A stretch of DNA of 50,306 nt from a bacterium (GTDB lineage Bacteria > JAHJDO01). Where the stretch lies: positions 1 through 50,306 of the forward strand of contig JAHJDO010000134.1 of NCBI GenBank assembly GCA_018812485.1, read 5' to 3'. A program made the position numbers and the translations under genes. Below, piece by piece: positions 14,411-21,014 of the stretch. Below the pieces are notes generated by a model. That model was not told the origin of the DNA. It did no database searches and saw only the letters and a list, made by a program, of their open reading frames with translations. Position 1 is the first letter of the stretch. Every line of letters starts with the position of its first letter.

Positions 14411-14470
14411 CCCATCCTAAATCCCCCTTTGAAGTGGGACAATTTTTTAGGATATTTTTTGACAAATACA
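14411..14470. repeat. Palindromic upstream element, copy 1 (before first DUF4143 gene)
   Basis: ATCCTAAA (14414-14421) pairs with TTTAGGAT (14446-14453); TCCC and GGGA inside extend the stem. The element continues into GGATA and the exact 14-mer TTTTGACAAATACA (14457-14470). A diverged copy with the same order of parts sits at 19604-19689 ahead of the second DUF4143 gene. It may be a dispersed element that carries the -35 region of these ATPase genes. Confidence 0.55.
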
Positions 14471-14537: not shown

Positions 14538-15698
14538 ATGAAGAATATTAAAAGAATGCTGGAGATAAAGCTTCCTGAAAGGCAATCCGCGTTTTTGTGG
14601 GGACCAAGAAAAACGGGGAAAACCACATATTTAAAGAGTCACTTTCCTGATAGCCTTGTGTATGATTTTCTGAAGACAGACTTTTTTATCGAAATCTTGA
14701 AAAATCCGGCGCTATTGCGAGAGCAAATACTTGCAAAGAATAATAGTGTCTTAAAGCATCCAATAATACTTGACGAGGTGCAAAAAGTTCCTCAGGTGCT
14801 TGATGAAGTACACTGGCTGATTGAGAACAAAGGATTAAGATTTATTCTCTGTGGATCAAGCGCAAGAAAATTACGAAGGGGACATGTTAATCTTTTAGGT
14901 GGAAGAGCCTGGCGTTACGAAATGTTCCCGCTTGTTACAGCTGAGCTTAAAAAGATTGATCTCCTGCGTATTCTAAATCATGGCATGATACCATCGCATT
15001 ATTTACAGGATGACGATTATAAAAAATCCTTAAAAGCTTATGTGCAGGATTATTTAAAAGAGGAGGTCTTTGCCGAGGGATTAACGCGAAATATCCCTGC
15101 CTTTTCAAGGTTTTTTGACGCATTTGGATATTCACACGGTGAGCTTACGAATTATTCTAATGTTGCGCGAGAGTGTGGAGTAGATTCAAAAACAGTCAAA
15201 GAATACTATCAAATCCTTGTCGACACATTGCTGGCTATGCGGATTGAACCTTTCAAAAAGAGACAATCACGGCATGTTATAACTAAGATTCCGAAGTATT
15301 ACTTGTTTGATGTAGGAGTTGCCGGATGCCTAACAAAGCGGCATCTTGAGGAAGAAAAAGGTGTTGACTTTGGAAAAGCGTTTGAACACTTCTTGCTTAT
15401 GGAGATAGTTGCTTACCGATCTTATAGCGGCAAGGATTTTGAAATAAATTTCTGGAGAACAAAGTCTGGTATTGAAGTAGATTTCGTGCTCGGAAAAGGA
15501 GAGATTGCCGTGGAGATAAAAGGAACGAACCGCGTTGATAAAAGGGATCTTAACGGACTGATGACTTTTATGGAAAGTTATTCTCCAAAAAGAAGGATCA
15601 TTGTTTGCAATGAAAAAGAAAAGAGACTTCATGCCAAAATAGAGATAGTCCCCTGGTATAATTTTCTGAGCGAATTATGGGAAGGAAAAATTCTTTAA
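14538..15698 (+). CDS. AAA-type ATPase with C-terminal DUF4143 (AAA_14/DUF4143 family)
   Basis: 386 aa. The N-terminal ATPase has Walker A GPRKTGKTT (22-30) and Walker B IILDEVQ (D79, E80), plus a sensor-like LCGSSARKL. The C-terminal DUF4143 region has FEHFLLMEI, then GIEVDFVLGKGEIAVEIKG, which looks like a PD-(D/E)XK nuclease core (D...E-x-K). Families like this are scattered as many diverged copies in genomes and are of unknown function; transfer on mobile DNA is often suspected. It has its own promoter, is oriented opposite to its neighbours on both sides, and forms the left border of the accessory island. It is only distantly similar to the copy at 19767. Confidence 0.88.
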   Translation: MKNIKRMLEIKLPERQSAFLWGPRKTGKTTYLKSHFPDSLVYDFLKTDFFIEILKNPALLREQILAKNNSVLKHPIILDEVQKVPQVLDEVHWLIENKGLRFILCGSSARKLRRGHVNLLGGRAWRYEMFPLVTAELKKIDLLRILNHGMIPSHYLQDDDYKKSLKAYVQDYLKEEVFAEGLTRNIPAFSRFFDAFGYSHGELTNYSNVARECGVDSKTVKEYYQILVDTLLAMRIEPFKKRQSRHVITKIPKYYLFDVGVAGCLTKRHLEEEKGVDFGKAFEHFLLMEIVAYRSYSGKDFEINFWRTKSGIEVDFVLGKGEIAVEIKGTNRVDKRDLNGLMTFMESYSPKRRIIVCNEKEKRLHAKIEIVPWYNFLSELWEGKIL

Positions 15699-15704
15699 AG
15701 TTCC

Positions 15705-15794
15705 AACAGACAGCTGAAGCTATCTGTTGTCCCCTCCCCCGCAACCGCCTGCTTTAGCTGGCGGTTATTGTAGGGGCAGCCCTTGCAGCTGCCC
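15705..15794. repeat. Cluster of three hairpin-forming inverted repeats
   Basis: Between the convergent DUF4143 gene and the small phage-like gene lie three stems: AACAGACAGCT/AGCTATCTGTT (15705-15728), AACCGCC/GGCGGTT (15743-15766) and GGGCAGC/GCTGCCC (15774-15794). The third is part of TAGGGGCAGCCCTTGCAGCTGCCC-like sequence, a kind of intergenic palindrome often repeated in bacterial genomes. They could act as bidirectional transcription stops or be REP-like elements. None is followed by a long T run, so classic intrinsic termination is not obvious. The rest of the gap to 15854 shows one weaker stem around the AATCCAGA at 15825. Confidence 0.6.
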
Positions 15795-15854
15795 GTTTGT
15801 CATTCTACGAATTGATTGGGGAATCCAGATGATTCTGGGATTTCTTCTATTTCT

Positions 15855-16229
15855 TTATCCTACGATAGGTTGATCTCCAGCAGGCTCAATTCTTTCTTTA
15901 ATGACATTAATTTTATTCTTAGTTTCCAACTTCGCTTTTAGTTCCCTTATCGCTGTTATTATATCTGCCTTTGTAGCAAATGGATTATCTGCGGAAGGAG
16001 AATTAGCCCCTGTCATAGCAGCTTTTTCGTCTGTAATTGGAAGCCTTGTGTCATTTCCCTCACAGACTGTCTTTGCAGTTGTTCCATATAGAGGATATAA
16101 TTGTGTATCATCGCCTGTAATTCCGTCTTTACCTATACTTGATATACCGTGTTTTGTTACTTTGTCAAAATAGAATATATCTGTGCGCTGGTCAAAGATG
16201 TGATGCACTCCATAGTTTTTTGATTTCAT
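15855..16229 (-). CDS. Small protein resembling phage tail / structural repeat segments
   Basis: 124 aa. It has a very strong Shine-Dalgarno site (AAAGGAGGTGA, eight bases before the ATG), so it is probably translated. The middle part, EGNDTRLPITDEKAAMTGAN then SPSADNPFATKAD, resembles linker repeats found in phage tail fibre and other virion-surface proteins. A helical, charged C-terminal part follows (ITAIRELKAKLETKNK). No enzymatic motif is visible. It is 19 bases after the GHKL ATPase gene on the same strand, so it is the last gene of that operon. It may be a phage remnant or a structural or sensing partner; the similarity is from memory and function is unknown. Confidence 0.6.
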   Translation of the reverse strand: MKSKNYGVHHIFDQRTDIFYFDKVTKHGISSIGKDGITGDDTQLYPLYGTTAKTVCEGNDTRLPITDEKAAMTGANSPSADNPFATKADIITAIRELKAKLETKNKINVIKERIEPAGDQPIVG

Positions 16230-16248
16230 TTTACTTTCACCTCCTTTT

Positions 16249-18525
16249 TTAAAAATTTTCCAAAATTCTTATATCTTTATCTTCAATCATAATTTTATGC
16301 GCCACTGGAAGAAATTCCTTCATTCTTTTTTGCAATTCTGCCACTACAGCATCAGCTATTATATTATCCTCTTTTAAATTAGCCCACTGAAACATCCAAG
16401 AGTGATGCTGTGATTCCAAGAGCAAAGATTTTCTGCACACACACTCTGCAATTATCTCTGCTAGAATTGCACGAAAATAAATAGACTTTTGCCCTACAAA
16501 ATTAGGAGGGGGGCCTAAATATCTCTTTAGTGAAGGATGTTTGGCAGATATAAGAAGTAAGTAAGGCTTGCCTTCGTGATCGCCCCACTTCGCTCTATAA
16601 TTACCGAAGTCTTCATCTTTTATATCAATTTCCAGAGGAGGACCACTTTCTTCTTTCTGTATTGTTTTTACTTTCGTAATCGCATCATAATTGCCCAACT
16701 TTGCTGATAAATTAATTGTCTCATGACACAACCTCCTTGCTTCTATGACGATATCAGCACGTGCAAAATTAGACCCGTGCACAGGAACTAGTATGCATCT
16801 ACCTTTTATTGGCAAACTGACATTATCACTTGAAATAACCTTAATTTCTGTTTCTATATTAATAAGCTCGGGGTATTTAGCAAATAGCTGTATAGTTTTT
16901 GAACTCCTTTCTCTGATTTTATAGTGTTTATGCTCAAACTCTAAAGGGGAAATAAATTCTCTCTCCTCTATTTTGTTTTCAACGACCGTAACAAATGCTT
17001 CAGCTTTATGTAATCCTTCATGTTGAGTTTCAATAATAACTCCATCCTTTAAAGCAATTCCTTTGATACTAAATCTACCATATAATAAATTATTTCTTTT
17101 TTTGTGCGCAACTAACTTAACAATGGGATTCAAAAATTCGATAGCTTCGCTGTCTTTTCCTAATGACACCTCTGCTTCTTCTTTATTAAATATTCTACGA
17201 TCAACGTATAAACTAAATGACCTCACATTCCCTAATGCCACATTTGCATAGGTAGGATATATGAGAATTCCACGCTTAGTAAATGAGTCATCATGCAATC
17301 CTTCGTCAATGCTCGGCTCGTCTAAATCTTCTACCTGTTGAACTAAGAATTTTGATGCAGCTTGCGCGAGTTTATCAAACCGTCTTTTTAATTCCTCATC
17401 GACTATTTCCTCTTTTGACTTTTTCGAAGCGGCGCGATCCTTATCAATTAACTCCTTCAAACGTTGAGTAGGCAAATCAAGTAAGGTTTTAACAAACGGG
17501 TGCTCTCTATACAAACCATACTGCCTATTGGGATCTATTACTAAACTAGGGTTTTCTATTGTTGGGGCTACACGACTTTCTATTCTTTTATCATACTCTT
17601 CCATTAAAAAGTCTATATATTCACACTCTATGCGACCAAAATATTTTTTCCCATAAACATCATTCTCAAAACTATTCTGCAACAAACTACATTCGTGTAT
17701 TGCACGCTTACCTTTAATAATCAATCCAGATTTTCTAAATTTATCAGAAATATCCACTAATGGCTCTGGAGATCGGAATATAATTAACTTCGCCTTTGCG
17801 TGAGGATAACCTGGAACAATAAATTCTTCTTTACAAACTAGCTCTGCCGGCGATTGATAATGCTTCAACTTTTTCAGATTATCATTACTATTAATGTCCT
17901 TGAACCCAATATCGCAAGGAGAGTTTTCTGCCATTATATCTCTTAAGGCAAAGTGAAAAGGAAGATTTTCACAAATAGTTTTAGACCTTGGTAAACGATG
18001 CCGTGTCAATTCAATAGTCACTACGGTACCGTTACGTCTTTCGATATTAAGATACTTTCGTAATTCTTGAGTCACTGTTCTACGCTTTACTAATGGAATA
18101 AAATCGCCATCGCTAGTTATTTTTACTTTATAATATTTACCGTCTACAATTGACTCAAATGTAGTATCACCTAATTCTGTAACATCTTTGGCGCCTCTTC
18201 CCATGATACCCCTGTCCCCTTCTTCACTACTTCGTTTACCAACATTTAATAGCTTTTCCAGCATAGTATCTAGTGTCATTCCTTCCGCCCTATCTCGTAC
18301 GATCAAGATAGAACTAGCATTTTTACGAGCAAGGGTTTCTATCAATATCCGTCCACCATCTTTTGGAATTAATTTACGCTTATATAATCTATGATAACTA
18401 TCATCAGCATTAGTTATAAGTTCAACTAGTGCATCAAAAGAATCTCTTATTGAGAACTGGCGATTATGCACCCAATATCTTTTCGTTACCTTCAATTCTA
18501 AGGGTTGACCGAGTTTAATTGCCAT
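16249..18525 (-). CDS. GHKL (Hsp90/MutL/MORC-like) ATPase of unknown function, large
   Basis: 758 aa, ATG with GAGGAGG five bases upstream. The N-terminal third is a GHKL ATP-binding domain. The N-box is ELITNADDS (E35, N39, D42), G1 is VRDRAEGM (D78, G82; the usual first Gly is Ala), and the lid is GDRGIMGRGAKD (103-114). A transducer-like region follows, then a charged helical section (about 365-410) and a long C-terminal region without a recognised nuclease or kinase domain. It is too long and divergent for HtpG or MutL and has no histidine-kinase H-box. Standalone MORC-like ATPases occur in bacterial conflict loci. It is in an operon with a winged-helix protein and a 78-aa protein. Confidence 0.8.
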   Translation of the reverse strand: MAIKLGQPLELKVTKRYWVHNRQFSIRDSFDALVELITNADDSYHRLYKRKLIPKDGGRILIETLARKNASSILIVRDRAEGMTLDTMLEKLLNVGKRSSEEGDRGIMGRGAKDVTELGDTTFESIVDGKYYKVKITSDGDFIPLVKRRTVTQELRKYLNIERRNGTVVTIELTRHRLPRSKTICENLPFHFALRDIMAENSPCDIGFKDINSNDNLKKLKHYQSPAELVCKEEFIVPGYPHAKAKLIIFRSPEPLVDISDKFRKSGLIIKGKRAIHECSLLQNSFENDVYGKKYFGRIECEYIDFLMEEYDKRIESRVAPTIENPSLVIDPNRQYGLYREHPFVKTLLDLPTQRLKELIDKDRAASKKSKEEIVDEELKRRFDKLAQAASKFLVQQVEDLDEPSIDEGLHDDSFTKRGILIYPTYANVALGNVRSFSLYVDRRIFNKEEAEVSLGKDSEAIEFLNPIVKLVAHKKRNNLLYGRFSIKGIALKDGVIIETQHEGLHKAEAFVTVVENKIEEREFISPLEFEHKHYKIRERSSKTIQLFAKYPELINIETEIKVISSDNVSLPIKGRCILVPVHGSNFARADIVIEARRLCHETINLSAKLGNYDAITKVKTIQKEESGPPLEIDIKDEDFGNYRAKWGDHEGKPYLLLISAKHPSLKRYLGPPPNFVGQKSIYFRAILAEIIAECVCRKSLLLESQHHSWMFQWANLKEDNIIADAVVAELQKRMKEFLPVAHKIMIEDKDIRILENF

Positions 18526-18535
18526 TGCATCCTCC

Positions 18536-19162
18536 TCAATTAATTAATAAATCCTTAAATCTTTCTCCACAAATATCTAAGAAAGATTGAATCTCTGAAT
18601 CATTAATCGCAAAAGCGGTAGTTTTAAAAAGATCGAATTTTTGCCTTATAACTTCTTTGCTTGCGTCAGGGCTACATCTCAACATATCTGTAAAGTCATA
18701 AGCTGATGCCTCCTCAAGAGACTTTTTTTCTTGATATATCTTAAATGTTTTTTCTTTGTGGATTCCTTTAATAAAACGCTGTGCTTGATGTTTTGGCAAT
18801 TCTTGGGAAATAGGTTTCTCTACTTTTAAACTGTTCAAAATTCGTGTTTGATTCTCAAAAAACCATTTTATACCGGCAGAAGTAAACTGCCATCCTTCAC
18901 TTTCACCACCGCCCTTATCTCTTCCTGCCCTTCCCTTAACAAGCTTTTGTTTTTTTGCTGATTCAAGTGCATATCTGACGGTGGTTTTATCTGGAAATTT
19001 ACGTTTCCGAAATTCGAGTAAACTCCAACAAAAACGTTCTTCGGAAAGATTGTACGCTTCCCATGCGATAAGTTCAGTATGAAGCTTTTTAGACGTGCCA
19101 CCTAACTTATGTAGAACATATAATACAACATCAACATTTGATAACCCTCCACCTATAGGCAT
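18536..19162 (-). CDS. Winged-helix protein, partner of the GHKL ATPase
   Basis: 208 aa, ATG with AAAGGAGG five bases upstream. The N-terminal half looks like a winged helix-turn-helix: helical opening NVDVVLYVLHKLGG, then FPDKTTVRYALESAKKQKLV followed by a wing-like GWQFTSAGIKWF. The C-terminal half is helical and charged (KTFKIYQEKKSLEEASAYDF) and unknown. It may bind DNA or regulate the operon, or present the ATPase to nucleic acid. Gaps are 12 bases upstream and 10 downstream, so it should be made together with the ATPase. The fold assignment is from pattern only. Confidence 0.65.
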   Translation of the reverse strand: MPIGGGLSNVDVVLYVLHKLGGTSKKLHTELIAWEAYNLSEERFCWSLLEFRKRKFPDKTTVRYALESAKKQKLVKGRAGRDKGGGESEGWQFTSAGIKWFFENQTRILNSLKVEKPISQELPKHQAQRFIKGIHKEKTFKIYQEKKSLEEASAYDFTDMLRCSPDASKEVIRQKFDLFKTTAFAINDSEIQSFLDICGERFKDLLIN

Positions 19163-19174
19163 TTTGTCCTCCTT

Positions 19175-19411
19175 TTATAAAGTGAATTTGTTGGACTTAG
19201 ATTTGCTGTTAAAAAGAATTTTAACTCTTCTTAGCTCAGAATCAACAGCGGAAAATATTTTGGATACATCTTCGTTAGAGTAACCATATATCCCGCGGTT
19301 AGAACAATTACCTAATTTACGAATGGTGTCCAACACCTTTTCTGTCCTTTTTGAAGCAATCCTTTTAAATCTTTGTTCTTTATTTTCATTTTCAACTTTA
19401 GGTTTTACCAT
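19175..19411 (-). CDS. Small conserved-looking protein (78 aa), first gene of the GHKL ATPase operon
   Basis: The ATG at 19411 is preferred over an in-frame TTG at 19432 because GGAGG lies five bases before it; this gives 78 aa. The core, EQRFKRIASKRTEKVLDTIR then LGNCSNRGIYGYSNEDVSKI and a helical AVDSELRRVK, resembles small uncharacterised proteins I remember from mobile or accessory regions. No catalytic motif is visible. A short conserved Cys-Ser-Asn-Arg segment stands out. It directly follows a near-consensus promoter and precedes the winged-helix gene by 12 bases. Confidence 0.65.
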   Translation of the reverse strand: MVKPKVENENKEQRFKRIASKRTEKVLDTIRKLGNCSNRGIYGYSNEDVSKIFSAVDSELRRVKILFNSKSKSNKFTL

Positions 19412-19456
19412 GCTTGCCTCCATTAATGTCAATTAATTATTACATATTTTCCATTG

Positions 19457-19484
19457 ATTATATACTATTAAAAAAACTTGTCAA
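19457..19484 (-). promoter_or_regulatory. Near-consensus promoter of the GHKL ATPase operon
   Basis: On the minus strand TTGACA (19479-19484) and TATAAT (19457-19462) are both perfect matches, 16 bases apart. The predicted leader is about 40 bases and ends in GGAGG before the ATG at 19411. This is the best promoter match I found in the window and suggests strong basal expression of the island operon. Confidence 0.75.
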
Positions 19485-19603
19485 GTATTTTTAAAATATT
19501 TTTCATTAGTTGTAACTTTTATGATGTCTTACAGGAGAAAAAACGCCAACCTGCGTCGTCTTCAAGATATTTGTTTATTCGTACAAACTCAACATTATAC
19601 TCC

Positions 19604-19689
19604 CACCATCCCAAAATCATAAAGAAAAAAGGGCGAAATCAGGGGGATGTTTTAATGTGCGATTTTTGGGGATACTTTTGACAAATACA
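19604..19689. repeat. Palindromic upstream element, copy 2 (before second DUF4143 gene)
   Basis: ATCCCAAAATC (19608-19618) pairs with GATTTTTGGGGAT (19661-19673), followed by GGATA, C and the exact 14-mer TTTTGACAAATACA (19676-19689). Order and spacing relative to the downstream ATPase gene parallel the copy at 14411-14470. The surrounding gap (19412-19766) otherwise holds only the island operon promoter; no further gene is visible in it. Confidence 0.55.
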
Positions 19690-19766
19690 TAGACGATTAA
19701 GGCAAATTTGAATTCACAATGCAGATTTGTCTTGACGTGGCGTAACATTGATGGTAAAAGGTAGTT

Positions 19767-21014
19767 ATGGTTAGTCAAGAAAATTTATATATACACAGGG
19801 AGATAGAAGATACACTCCGTCATTCGGTTAGGCATTTTCCTGCTGTTGCCTTAACTGGTCCACGACAATCAGGGAAATCTACTCTGGTTAAGAATGTTTT
19901 TGGAAAGACTCATGCTGTGGTTTCCTTTGATGATCCACTTATGCGCGAACGGGCGATTTCTGACCCCCGACTTTTTATTGATAGCCTTGGTGAGAATATA
20001 GTGTTTGATGAAATTCAATATGTCCCTGAAATCCTTTCTTATATAAAGATGCTAATTGATCAAAAACGTCATAGTTATGGCAGATTTATTATTACAGGTT
20101 CACAGCAATTTCATCTTATCAAAAATCTGGGAGATACATTAGCCGGCAGGGTTGCCTTGCTTGATCTATTGCCATTTAGCATAGAAGAGAAAAGGAAGAT
20201 TGTCTCGCTAAAAGCTAAATTATCCAATGATCAAGAGAGTTTTCTTCATGCCTGCCTCAGGGGTTCTTACCCAGAAAACTCAATTCACTCAGGCGTAAGT
20301 TCCCGGCAATGGTACGGTAGTTATGTGCAGACCTACTTAGAACGAGACATACGCACAATTTATAACATAGGCATTTTAAGAGAATTTCAGCAGTTTATGC
20401 GTCTTTTGGCTGGGCGCTGTTCGGGAATATTGAACTTAAGCTCACTTGCCAGTGATTTAGGCGTAAGCGGCAATACCATTAAAAAATGGCTTTCAATATT
20501 AGAAGCAAGCCATATTATTTATGTCCTTCCACCATATTACAGGAATTTAGGAAAGCGGATAACTAAAAGTCCAAAAGTTTATTTTTTAGACGCTGGGTTA
20601 GTTTGTTATTTAACCGGCTTGGAGACCAAAGAGCATTTACTAAACGGACCATTAGCCGGCGCCTTGTTTGAAAATTTTGTTATTCAAGAGACCGTAAAAC
20701 ACTTTTTTAACCGTGGTATCAAACCCAATCTTTTCTACCTGCGGACACATAATGATGTAGAGATTGATTTAATTATTGAAAGCAACCTAAAGCTTTACCC
20801 CTTTGAGATTAAATTAAGTAAAACTCCAAATCTCGGCATGGCAAAACCGATAGAGACATTTAAGAAGCTATTTCCAAAACTAAAGATCGGTGACGGCAGT
20901 GTCATTTCTTTAAGCAAACAGGAAGTACCTTTGACAAAAAATGTATCAACCATAAGTGTAAATTCATATCTAAAGCACCTTGCTGAAATCAGCAAGGCTA
21001 CTGTTCCGAGATGA
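19767..21014 (+). CDS. AAA-type ATPase with C-terminal DUF4143, second copy
   Basis: 415 aa. Walker A is GPRQSGKST (31-39, K37), Walker B is IVFDEIQ (D81, E82), and ITGSQQFHLI is sensor-like. The C-terminus has FENFVIQETVKHF and VEIDLIIESNLKLYPFEIKLS, again like a PD-(D/E)XK core. It belongs to the same broad family as the gene at 14538 but is only distantly similar, so the two are not a recent duplication. It overlaps tolC by ATGA (21011-21014), which is odd: a mobile-type ATPase is translationally chained to an efflux operon. The function of this family is unknown. Confidence 0.88.
   Translation: MVSQENLYIHREIEDTLRHSVRHFPAVALTGPRQSGKSTLVKNVFGKTHAVVSFDDPLMRERAISDPRLFIDSLGENIVFDEIQYVPEILSYIKMLIDQKRHSYGRFIITGSQQFHLIKNLGDTLAGRVALLDLLPFSIEEKRKIVSLKAKLSNDQESFLHACLRGSYPENSIHSGVSSRQWYGSYVQTYLERDIRTIYNIGILREFQQFMRLLAGRCSGILNLSSLASDLGVSGNTIKKWLSILEASHIIYVLPPYYRNLGKRITKSPKVYFLDAGLVCYLTGLETKEHLLNGPLAGALFENFVIQETVKHFFNRGIKPNLFYLRTHNDVEIDLIIESNLKLYPFEIKLSKTPNLGMAKPIETFKKLFPKLKIGDGSVISLSKQEVPLTKNVSTISVNSYLKHLAEISKATVPR

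Follow-up and report, generated by a model that had tools for sequence, protein, structure and literature searches.

The 50,306-nt stretch analysed here (hereafter the window; contig JAHJDO010000134.1 of assembly GCA_018812485.1, from a bacterium of the GTDB lineage JAHJDO01) carries an operon built around a 758-residue protein predicted to be a GHKL ATPase. Four minus-strand open reading frames, separated as originally predicted by gaps of 12, 10 and 19 nt and each preceded by a GGAGG-type Shine-Dalgarno site read in the sequence, encode in order of transcription a 78-residue small protein, a 208-residue winged-helix protein, the ATPase and a 124-residue protein (Table 1). An alternative TTG start at 19432 would extend the small protein to 85 residues. 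The promoter, previously described as near-consensus, is a perfect TTGACA-16-TATAAT and the sole 12/12 match in a 4.2-kb scan, with a runner-up of 10/12. Pfam, NCBIfam and PADLOC gave no significant match for the ATPase, the winged-helix protein or the small protein, and no named system matched in the libraries searched, in agreement with the statement that the set is not a named system.

Table 1. Coordinates of the operon, the surrounding island and its boundaries in the window
Feature	Position	Strand	Basis or remark
Operon promoter, sigma-70, TTGACA-16-TATAAT	19457..19484	-	12/12 match
78-aa small protein, GHKL companion, ATG start	19175..19411	-	homologues upstream of GHKL genes
208-aa winged-helix protein with helical C-terminal domain	18536..19162	-	AlphaFold2 model, partial Foldseek matches
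758-aa predicted GHKL+S5 ATPase	16249..18525	-	motifs, AlphaFold2, Foldseek
124-aa tail-like protein	15855..16229	-	weak PHROG tail match
DUF4143/AAA_14 ATPase, 386 aa, island passenger	14538..15698	+	Pfam/PADLOC library scans
DUF4143/AAA_14 ATPase, 415 aa, island passenger	19767..21014	+	Pfam/PADLOC library scans
Island insertion of 6.46 kb separating the tolC leader from its coding sequence	14543..21003		missing at the site in G002 and G004
Left 12-bp direct repeat TTCCGAGATGAA	14531..14542	+	overlaps tolC start codon
Right 12-bp direct repeat TTCCGAGATGAA	21004..21015	+	single copy at congeners' uninterrupted sites

Architecture of the ATPase and its winged-helix partner

The GHKL assignment of the original prediction is borne out by both motifs and structure. 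Across 89-90 homologues, the N-box (E35...N39-x-D41-D42) and the motifs G1 (D78-x-A-x-G82), G2 (R105-G106...G111) and G3 (G166-T167) are fully or almost fully conserved, and a profile of 70 homologues matches the Hsp90 N-terminal domain with an E-value of about 1e-3. The AlphaFold2 model (predicted local distance difference test score, pLDDT, 91.2; predicted template modelling score 0.62) comprises a GHKL domain (about residues 1-200), an S5/transducer domain (200-340), a helical stalk (343-399), two β-rich, sandwich-like domains (about 420-622) and an α/β domain (632-757), the borders being our reading of the secondary structure. Structural similarity search using Foldseek revealed that the N-terminal half resembles TopoVI-B, ParE/GyrB, TRAP1, MORC2/MORC4 and MutL, with E-values of 1e-8 to 1e-12, and these matches identify a Bergerat fold. 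An S5 domain is also present, as residues of about 200-340 lie inside the alignments to the S5/transducer of TopoVI-B, GyrB and MORC. On its motifs and model, the 758-residue protein is classed as a GHKL+S5 ATPase, of the same kind as MORC, topoisomerase VI-B and Hsp90. No nuclease domain or motif was recognised in it, with Pfam and PADLOC giving no match. Two giant-virus proteins, of Hokovirus HKV1 (702 aa) and Yasminevirus (759 aa), match nearly the whole ATPase model at 14-16% identity (Foldseek E-values of 3e-34 and 3e-29), far better than phage proteins do.

The claim that the 208-residue protein is a winged-helix protein is supported by its AlphaFold2 model (pLDDT 91.7), in which the winged helix occupies residues 9-93 (helices, followed by a two-strand wing) and the C-terminal part is all-helical and of unfamiliar fold. 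Foldseek returned partial matches in the first part only, to PadR/MarR-type folds, with probabilities up to 0.99, yet E-values of only 0.1-0.2. Searches of the PDB sequences with the winged-helix and small proteins gave nothing credible.

Conservation and spread of the gene pair

A scan of one genome per species yielded 171 candidate ATPase relatives, of which 80 loci were kept in addition to one viral contig; gene order was counted over 84 non-duplicate loci from many phyla. A winged-helix gene adjoins the ATPase gene in 59 of these loci. It lies directly upstream in 57, where the intergenic distance ranges from -89 to +45 nt, so that the two genes mostly overlap or are no more than about 45 nt apart; of the other two, L059 has it downstream and L047 has a split ATPase frame. 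The small gene is found upstream of the pair in 20/84 loci. The ATPase and winged-helix proteins co-diverge, with a Mantel r of 0.88 between their distance matrices, compared to 0.60 between ATPase and small protein, both values including host relatedness. Phyla are intermingled on the tree, where the window ATPase has its nearest relatives in Myxococcota, Nitrospirota, a Roizmanbacterium, Acidobacteriota and Chloroflexota, and the minimum number of changes is two for the winged-helix gene and ten for the small gene. The distribution is patchy: the ATPase was found in 8 of 385 genomes of a broad sample and in one of the five genomes of the genus, and relatives occur in small SAR11 genomes too. 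Searches of plasmids, phages and viral contigs with the single protein returned no ATPase homologue, an alignment query being needed. Overall, the ATPase and winged-helix genes form a pair that is conserved across phyla and horizontally mobile. At L047 (10001-12228) the two frames into which the ATPase gene is split overlap, which may reflect a frameshift or a pseudogene, and in three Chloroflexota loci (L062, L063 and L066) the cassette has an extra conserved gene of 70-90 aa downstream.

Co-occurrence stands for the pair and fails for the 124-aa and DUF4143 genes, so that the four-gene unit originally proposed is not retained. The 124-aa gene is present only here and in one congener (G001), and among the fetched loci it has no clear homologue beyond the genus; it is a passenger at the level of the genus, located 3' in the cassette and outside the conserved core, and its description as phage-tail-like goes back to a single weak PHROG match (E-value 0.013). 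Both flanking DUF4143 ATPases are real, as claimed; they were rejected as components, for the genome has four such genes, including two on other contigs, and their presence beside the ATPase gene is not conserved. A GC-rich dispersed repeat (CCGCCAGCTAAAGCAGGCGGTT...) sits beside the 124-aa gene (window 15719-15768) and recurs elsewhere in congeners (L105 3768-3817 and 6453-6485, L185 6005-6121).

The small protein, the exchanged cassette and the inserted island

The small protein gave one weak PHROG match (E-value 6e-4), to a family of unknown function. On plasmids as well as in further genomes, its homologues directly precede other GHKL genes, which fall into at least four classes. Six loci are of the type of PDC-M33, a PADLOC candidate system (L093, L094, L107, L108, L166 and L168, of which L094, L108, L166 and L168 were classed from their gene order and resemblance to L107 rather than from individual PADLOC scans), with nearby DUF6339, or Dcm, Vsr, AlwI, MutH/Sau3AI-type or Shedu genes. 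In two others (L090 and L092), the small protein is followed by a 621-aa GHKL protein and then a GajA-like gene, together with a GajB-like gene in L090; here the GHKL gene could represent a Gabija accessory that has gone unrecognised. The plasmids concerned are from Agrobacterium and Dinoroseobacter. A standalone 616-aa relative of the 621-aa protein follows the small protein in L164, and a conjugative Ensifer plasmid (pCTYH.Ch1_3, L163) carries a trio of small, GHKL and winged-helix genes near a DNA methyltransferase gene, in which the GHKL protein is a divergent relative of the window ATPase (profile E-value 5e-9) and the winged-helix protein is likewise related (2e-8).

Copies with no adjoining GHKL gene were found at L091, L109, L110, L165, L167 and L169; L106 and L112 lie at contig ends, and the copy in G119 is broken by a stop codon. 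An obligate link to PDC-M33 was rejected, as most further PDC-M33A loci fetched have no small protein. The link is therefore strong from the small-protein side and optional from the ATPase side. In this sense GHKL ATPases do have a recurrent partner in the 78-residue protein, and several of these ATPases lie in restriction-modification or defence-candidate loci.

The same promoter and small gene stand before another type of GHKL protein in the congener G001 (locus L105). Both are as in the window (79% nucleotide identity over 200 nt, L105 323-520), with one base of the -10 box differing, and the 124-aa gene is present at the 3' end (84% nucleotide identity over 251 nt; proteins 73% identical), whereas the middle of the cassette is replaced by genes for a different GHKL-type protein of 682 aa and a 209-aa protein. 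These two proteins (L105 704-3383) have no Pfam or credible PADLOC match, and the pair is possibly a further undescribed system; the GHKL calls for the 682-aa protein and for PDC-M33A rest on motifs read by eye. As the swap is seen between two members of one genus, we tentatively suggest that the ATPase cassette is exchanged behind a fixed promoter and adaptor gene. The 70-80-aa protein could then be a common adaptor or licensing factor for a superclass of swappable GHKL-ATPase immune modules; its members might include the ATPase plus winged-helix type, PDC-M33, the GHKL-Gabija hybrids and the 682-aa and 616-aa types, a grouping about which we remain doubtful.

The operon was also said to interrupt housekeeping operons, and it does lie in an island whose insertion parts serC from a tolC-like gene, at the start of tolC, so that the former tolC start is now that of the first DUF4143 gene. 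The tolC leader runs directly into tolC in G002; in G004 serC and the tolC-like gene are parted by one unrelated, glycosyltransferase-looking gene; neither has the island at this site. A 27-nt segment resembling the tolC leader occurs at 14444-14470 and again, with 78% identity, at 19663-19689 upstream of the second DUF4143 gene, a repetition that hints at assembly of the island in more than one insertion step.

The island setting, and a strong, constitutive-looking promoter with the small gene first, are what a selfish or addiction module would show, in which the 78-residue protein acts as antitoxin or regulator and a toxic ATPase retains the island. However, 64 of the 84 ATPase loci showed no small gene (some contigs end early), and it is therefore no general antitoxin for this ATPase; we regard such a module as very improbable.

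Relation to known systems and proposed role

Closest in idea, by analogy, appear the paraMORC proteins of restriction-modification operons (PMC2292703) and the GHKL-Shedu protein VcSduA (PMC12137116). MORC and paraMORC GHKL ATPases sit in such operons (Iyer et al. 2008, PMC2292703), and the window system shares with them an N-terminal GHKL+S5 module, a patchy and laterally mobile distribution and, in a minority of loci, restriction-modification neighbours; it differs in having its own winged-helix partner, a stalk, two β-rich domains and an α/β C-terminus. The superfamily II helicase and nuclease association of MORC and paraMORC does not recur among the family loci, a few of which have helicases. 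VcSduA (paraMORC3), which has an experimentally established role in protecting against phage and requires its GHKL glutamate for it (PMC12137116), is also a GHKL ATPase; it carries its own PD-(D/E)xK nuclease, whereas none is recognised in the window ATPase, for which the C-terminal PD-(D/E)xK nuclease of Shedu/paraMORC3 (DUF4263) gave no Pfam or PADLOC match.

PDC-M33 (GHKL-type protein A, protein B and the DUF6339 protein C) resembles the window system in its GHKL-type protein of 620-640 aa, assigned by motifs, and in the six loci preceded by the small-protein family. Despite this likeness, PDC-M33A is not clearly related to the window ATPase, the profile comparisons being weak (probability 15%, E-value 0.0017), partners B and C are missing at the window locus, and many PDC-M33 loci have no small protein. 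The PDC-M33A, B and C models gave no PADLOC match in the core proteins, and PDC-M33A is absent from the genome at an E-value of 1e-20; no mention of PDC-M33 or DUF6339 was found in the literature searched. T4-type phage RIIA proteins also have a GHKL-type N-terminal part (Foldseek E-value about 1e-10), but they lack the partner proteins seen here and the alignment is confined to that part.

CapK and CapS likewise combine a GHKL protein with a co-encoded winged-helix DNA-binding protein (PMC13373217). This resemblance, a winged helix most like PadR/MarR-type regulators, and the LexA, UmuC/UmuD or DinB genes recognised by eye near some loci would suit a regulatory pair, in which a GHKL sensor ATPase or kinase modifies or displaces a winged-helix repressor and so controls its own operon and neighbours under stress such as DNA damage. 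We consider this unlikely: there is no conserved downstream effector operon, the gene pair usually forms its own cassette, and the S5 domain and GyrB/MORC-type architecture are not those of a SpoIIAB-type kinase. Moreover, CapK is a helix-turn-helix-STAS-GHKL kinase and CapS carries a STAS domain, whereas the window encodes a predicted clamp-type GHKL+S5 ATPase; for neither window protein was there a Pfam match to STAS at E<=1 or a STAS-like top match in the structure searches, and membership of CapK/CapS is rejected on account of these missing domains. Since the defining partner or nuclease features of paraMORC, Shedu, PDC-M33 and CapK/CapS are lacking here, the system is filed as a member of none.

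We propose that the operon is a mobile conflict-type module, in which a GHKL+S5 clamp is directed by its winged-helix partner and assisted by an optional, shared accessory protein. A conflict role as such seems likely to us, and the full statement we regard as evenly balanced. Upon ATP binding, two ATPase subunits would close through their N-terminal domains and trap DNA, as in MORC, MutL and topoisomerase VI-B; the winged-helix protein would serve as a dedicated DNA-contact partner that loads the clamp onto invading DNA. For the 70-80-aa protein, whose sequence looks helical, we suggest an accessory role in which it would bind GHKL ATPases or regulate them, common to several otherwise unrelated GHKL defence modules. 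As no nuclease motif was seen, the clamp would probably block or compact foreign DNA, or recruit host enzymes, instead of cutting. Judged from its sequence, the operon is a good candidate for, and probably represents, an undescribed defence system, most likely directed against phages or plasmids.

The surroundings of the family agree with this proposal in part. Genes with methyltransferase motifs lie within 6 kb of 8 of the 55 winged-helix-bearing loci, and 40 control regions taken from those genomes contain none (Fisher p 0.019 when loci are counted, 0.008 when genes are), as judged by a motif search that is crude but equally applied, over regions unequal in length and with control stretches taken from low-numbered contigs rather than at random. 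PADLOC matches among the neighbours include restriction/modification types I, II, IIG, III and IV, SoFic, HmaB and DpdF; as control genes score too, mostly via kinase-like families, the match counts are not taken as evidence of enrichment. The expected enrichment in defence islands is weakly supported, being significant but modest for methyltransferases, with most copies standing alone among variable or housekeeping genes.

Several observations weigh against the proposal. No methyltransferase-motif gene lies within 6 kb of the remaining 47 of the 55 loci, and several copies sit among housekeeping genes, at L065, L073 and L062/L063, the latter two between ATP synthase genes (the L062 cassette between atpG- and atpD-like genes, and L063 also with an atpD-like gene downstream). 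The family is nearly absent from viral contigs (one match) and plasmids, and no known effector or nuclease domain was found. In addition, a clade of 25 loci, mostly from Gemmatimonadota and Rhodothermota, has no winged-helix gene; a search for an unlinked copy found none in 14 of 15 genomes of this clade, which rules out mere unlinking for those 14. This partner is therefore not essential for every member.

A further view is that the ATPase is a MutL/MORC-like clamp of host DNA repair or chromosome structure, laterally spread and with no defence role. The GHKL+S5 fold is common to MutL, TopoVI and MORC, some neighbours are helicases, UmuC/UmuD, DinB or XseA (recognised by eye), and the occurrence in small SAR11 genomes would be in keeping with it. 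Such a factor appears quite unlikely in view of the very patchy distribution, the precise island, the replacement of the cassette and a small protein common to PDC-M33- and Gabija-associated GHKL proteins. The original prediction would have been undermined by homologues standing mostly alone in stable housekeeping contexts; the neighbours are partly of this kind, but the contexts are not stable, the family being patchy, transferred, swapped and inserted.

If the proposed conflict module is correct, a widespread, unnamed and apparently nuclease-free GHKL clamp system would join the repertoire of microbial immunity. A tiny shared protein would link candidate systems that have been catalogued separately and provide a handle for finding more, and the system would be relevant to the relation between eukaryotic silencing ATPases of the MORC type and the conflict systems of prokaryotes.

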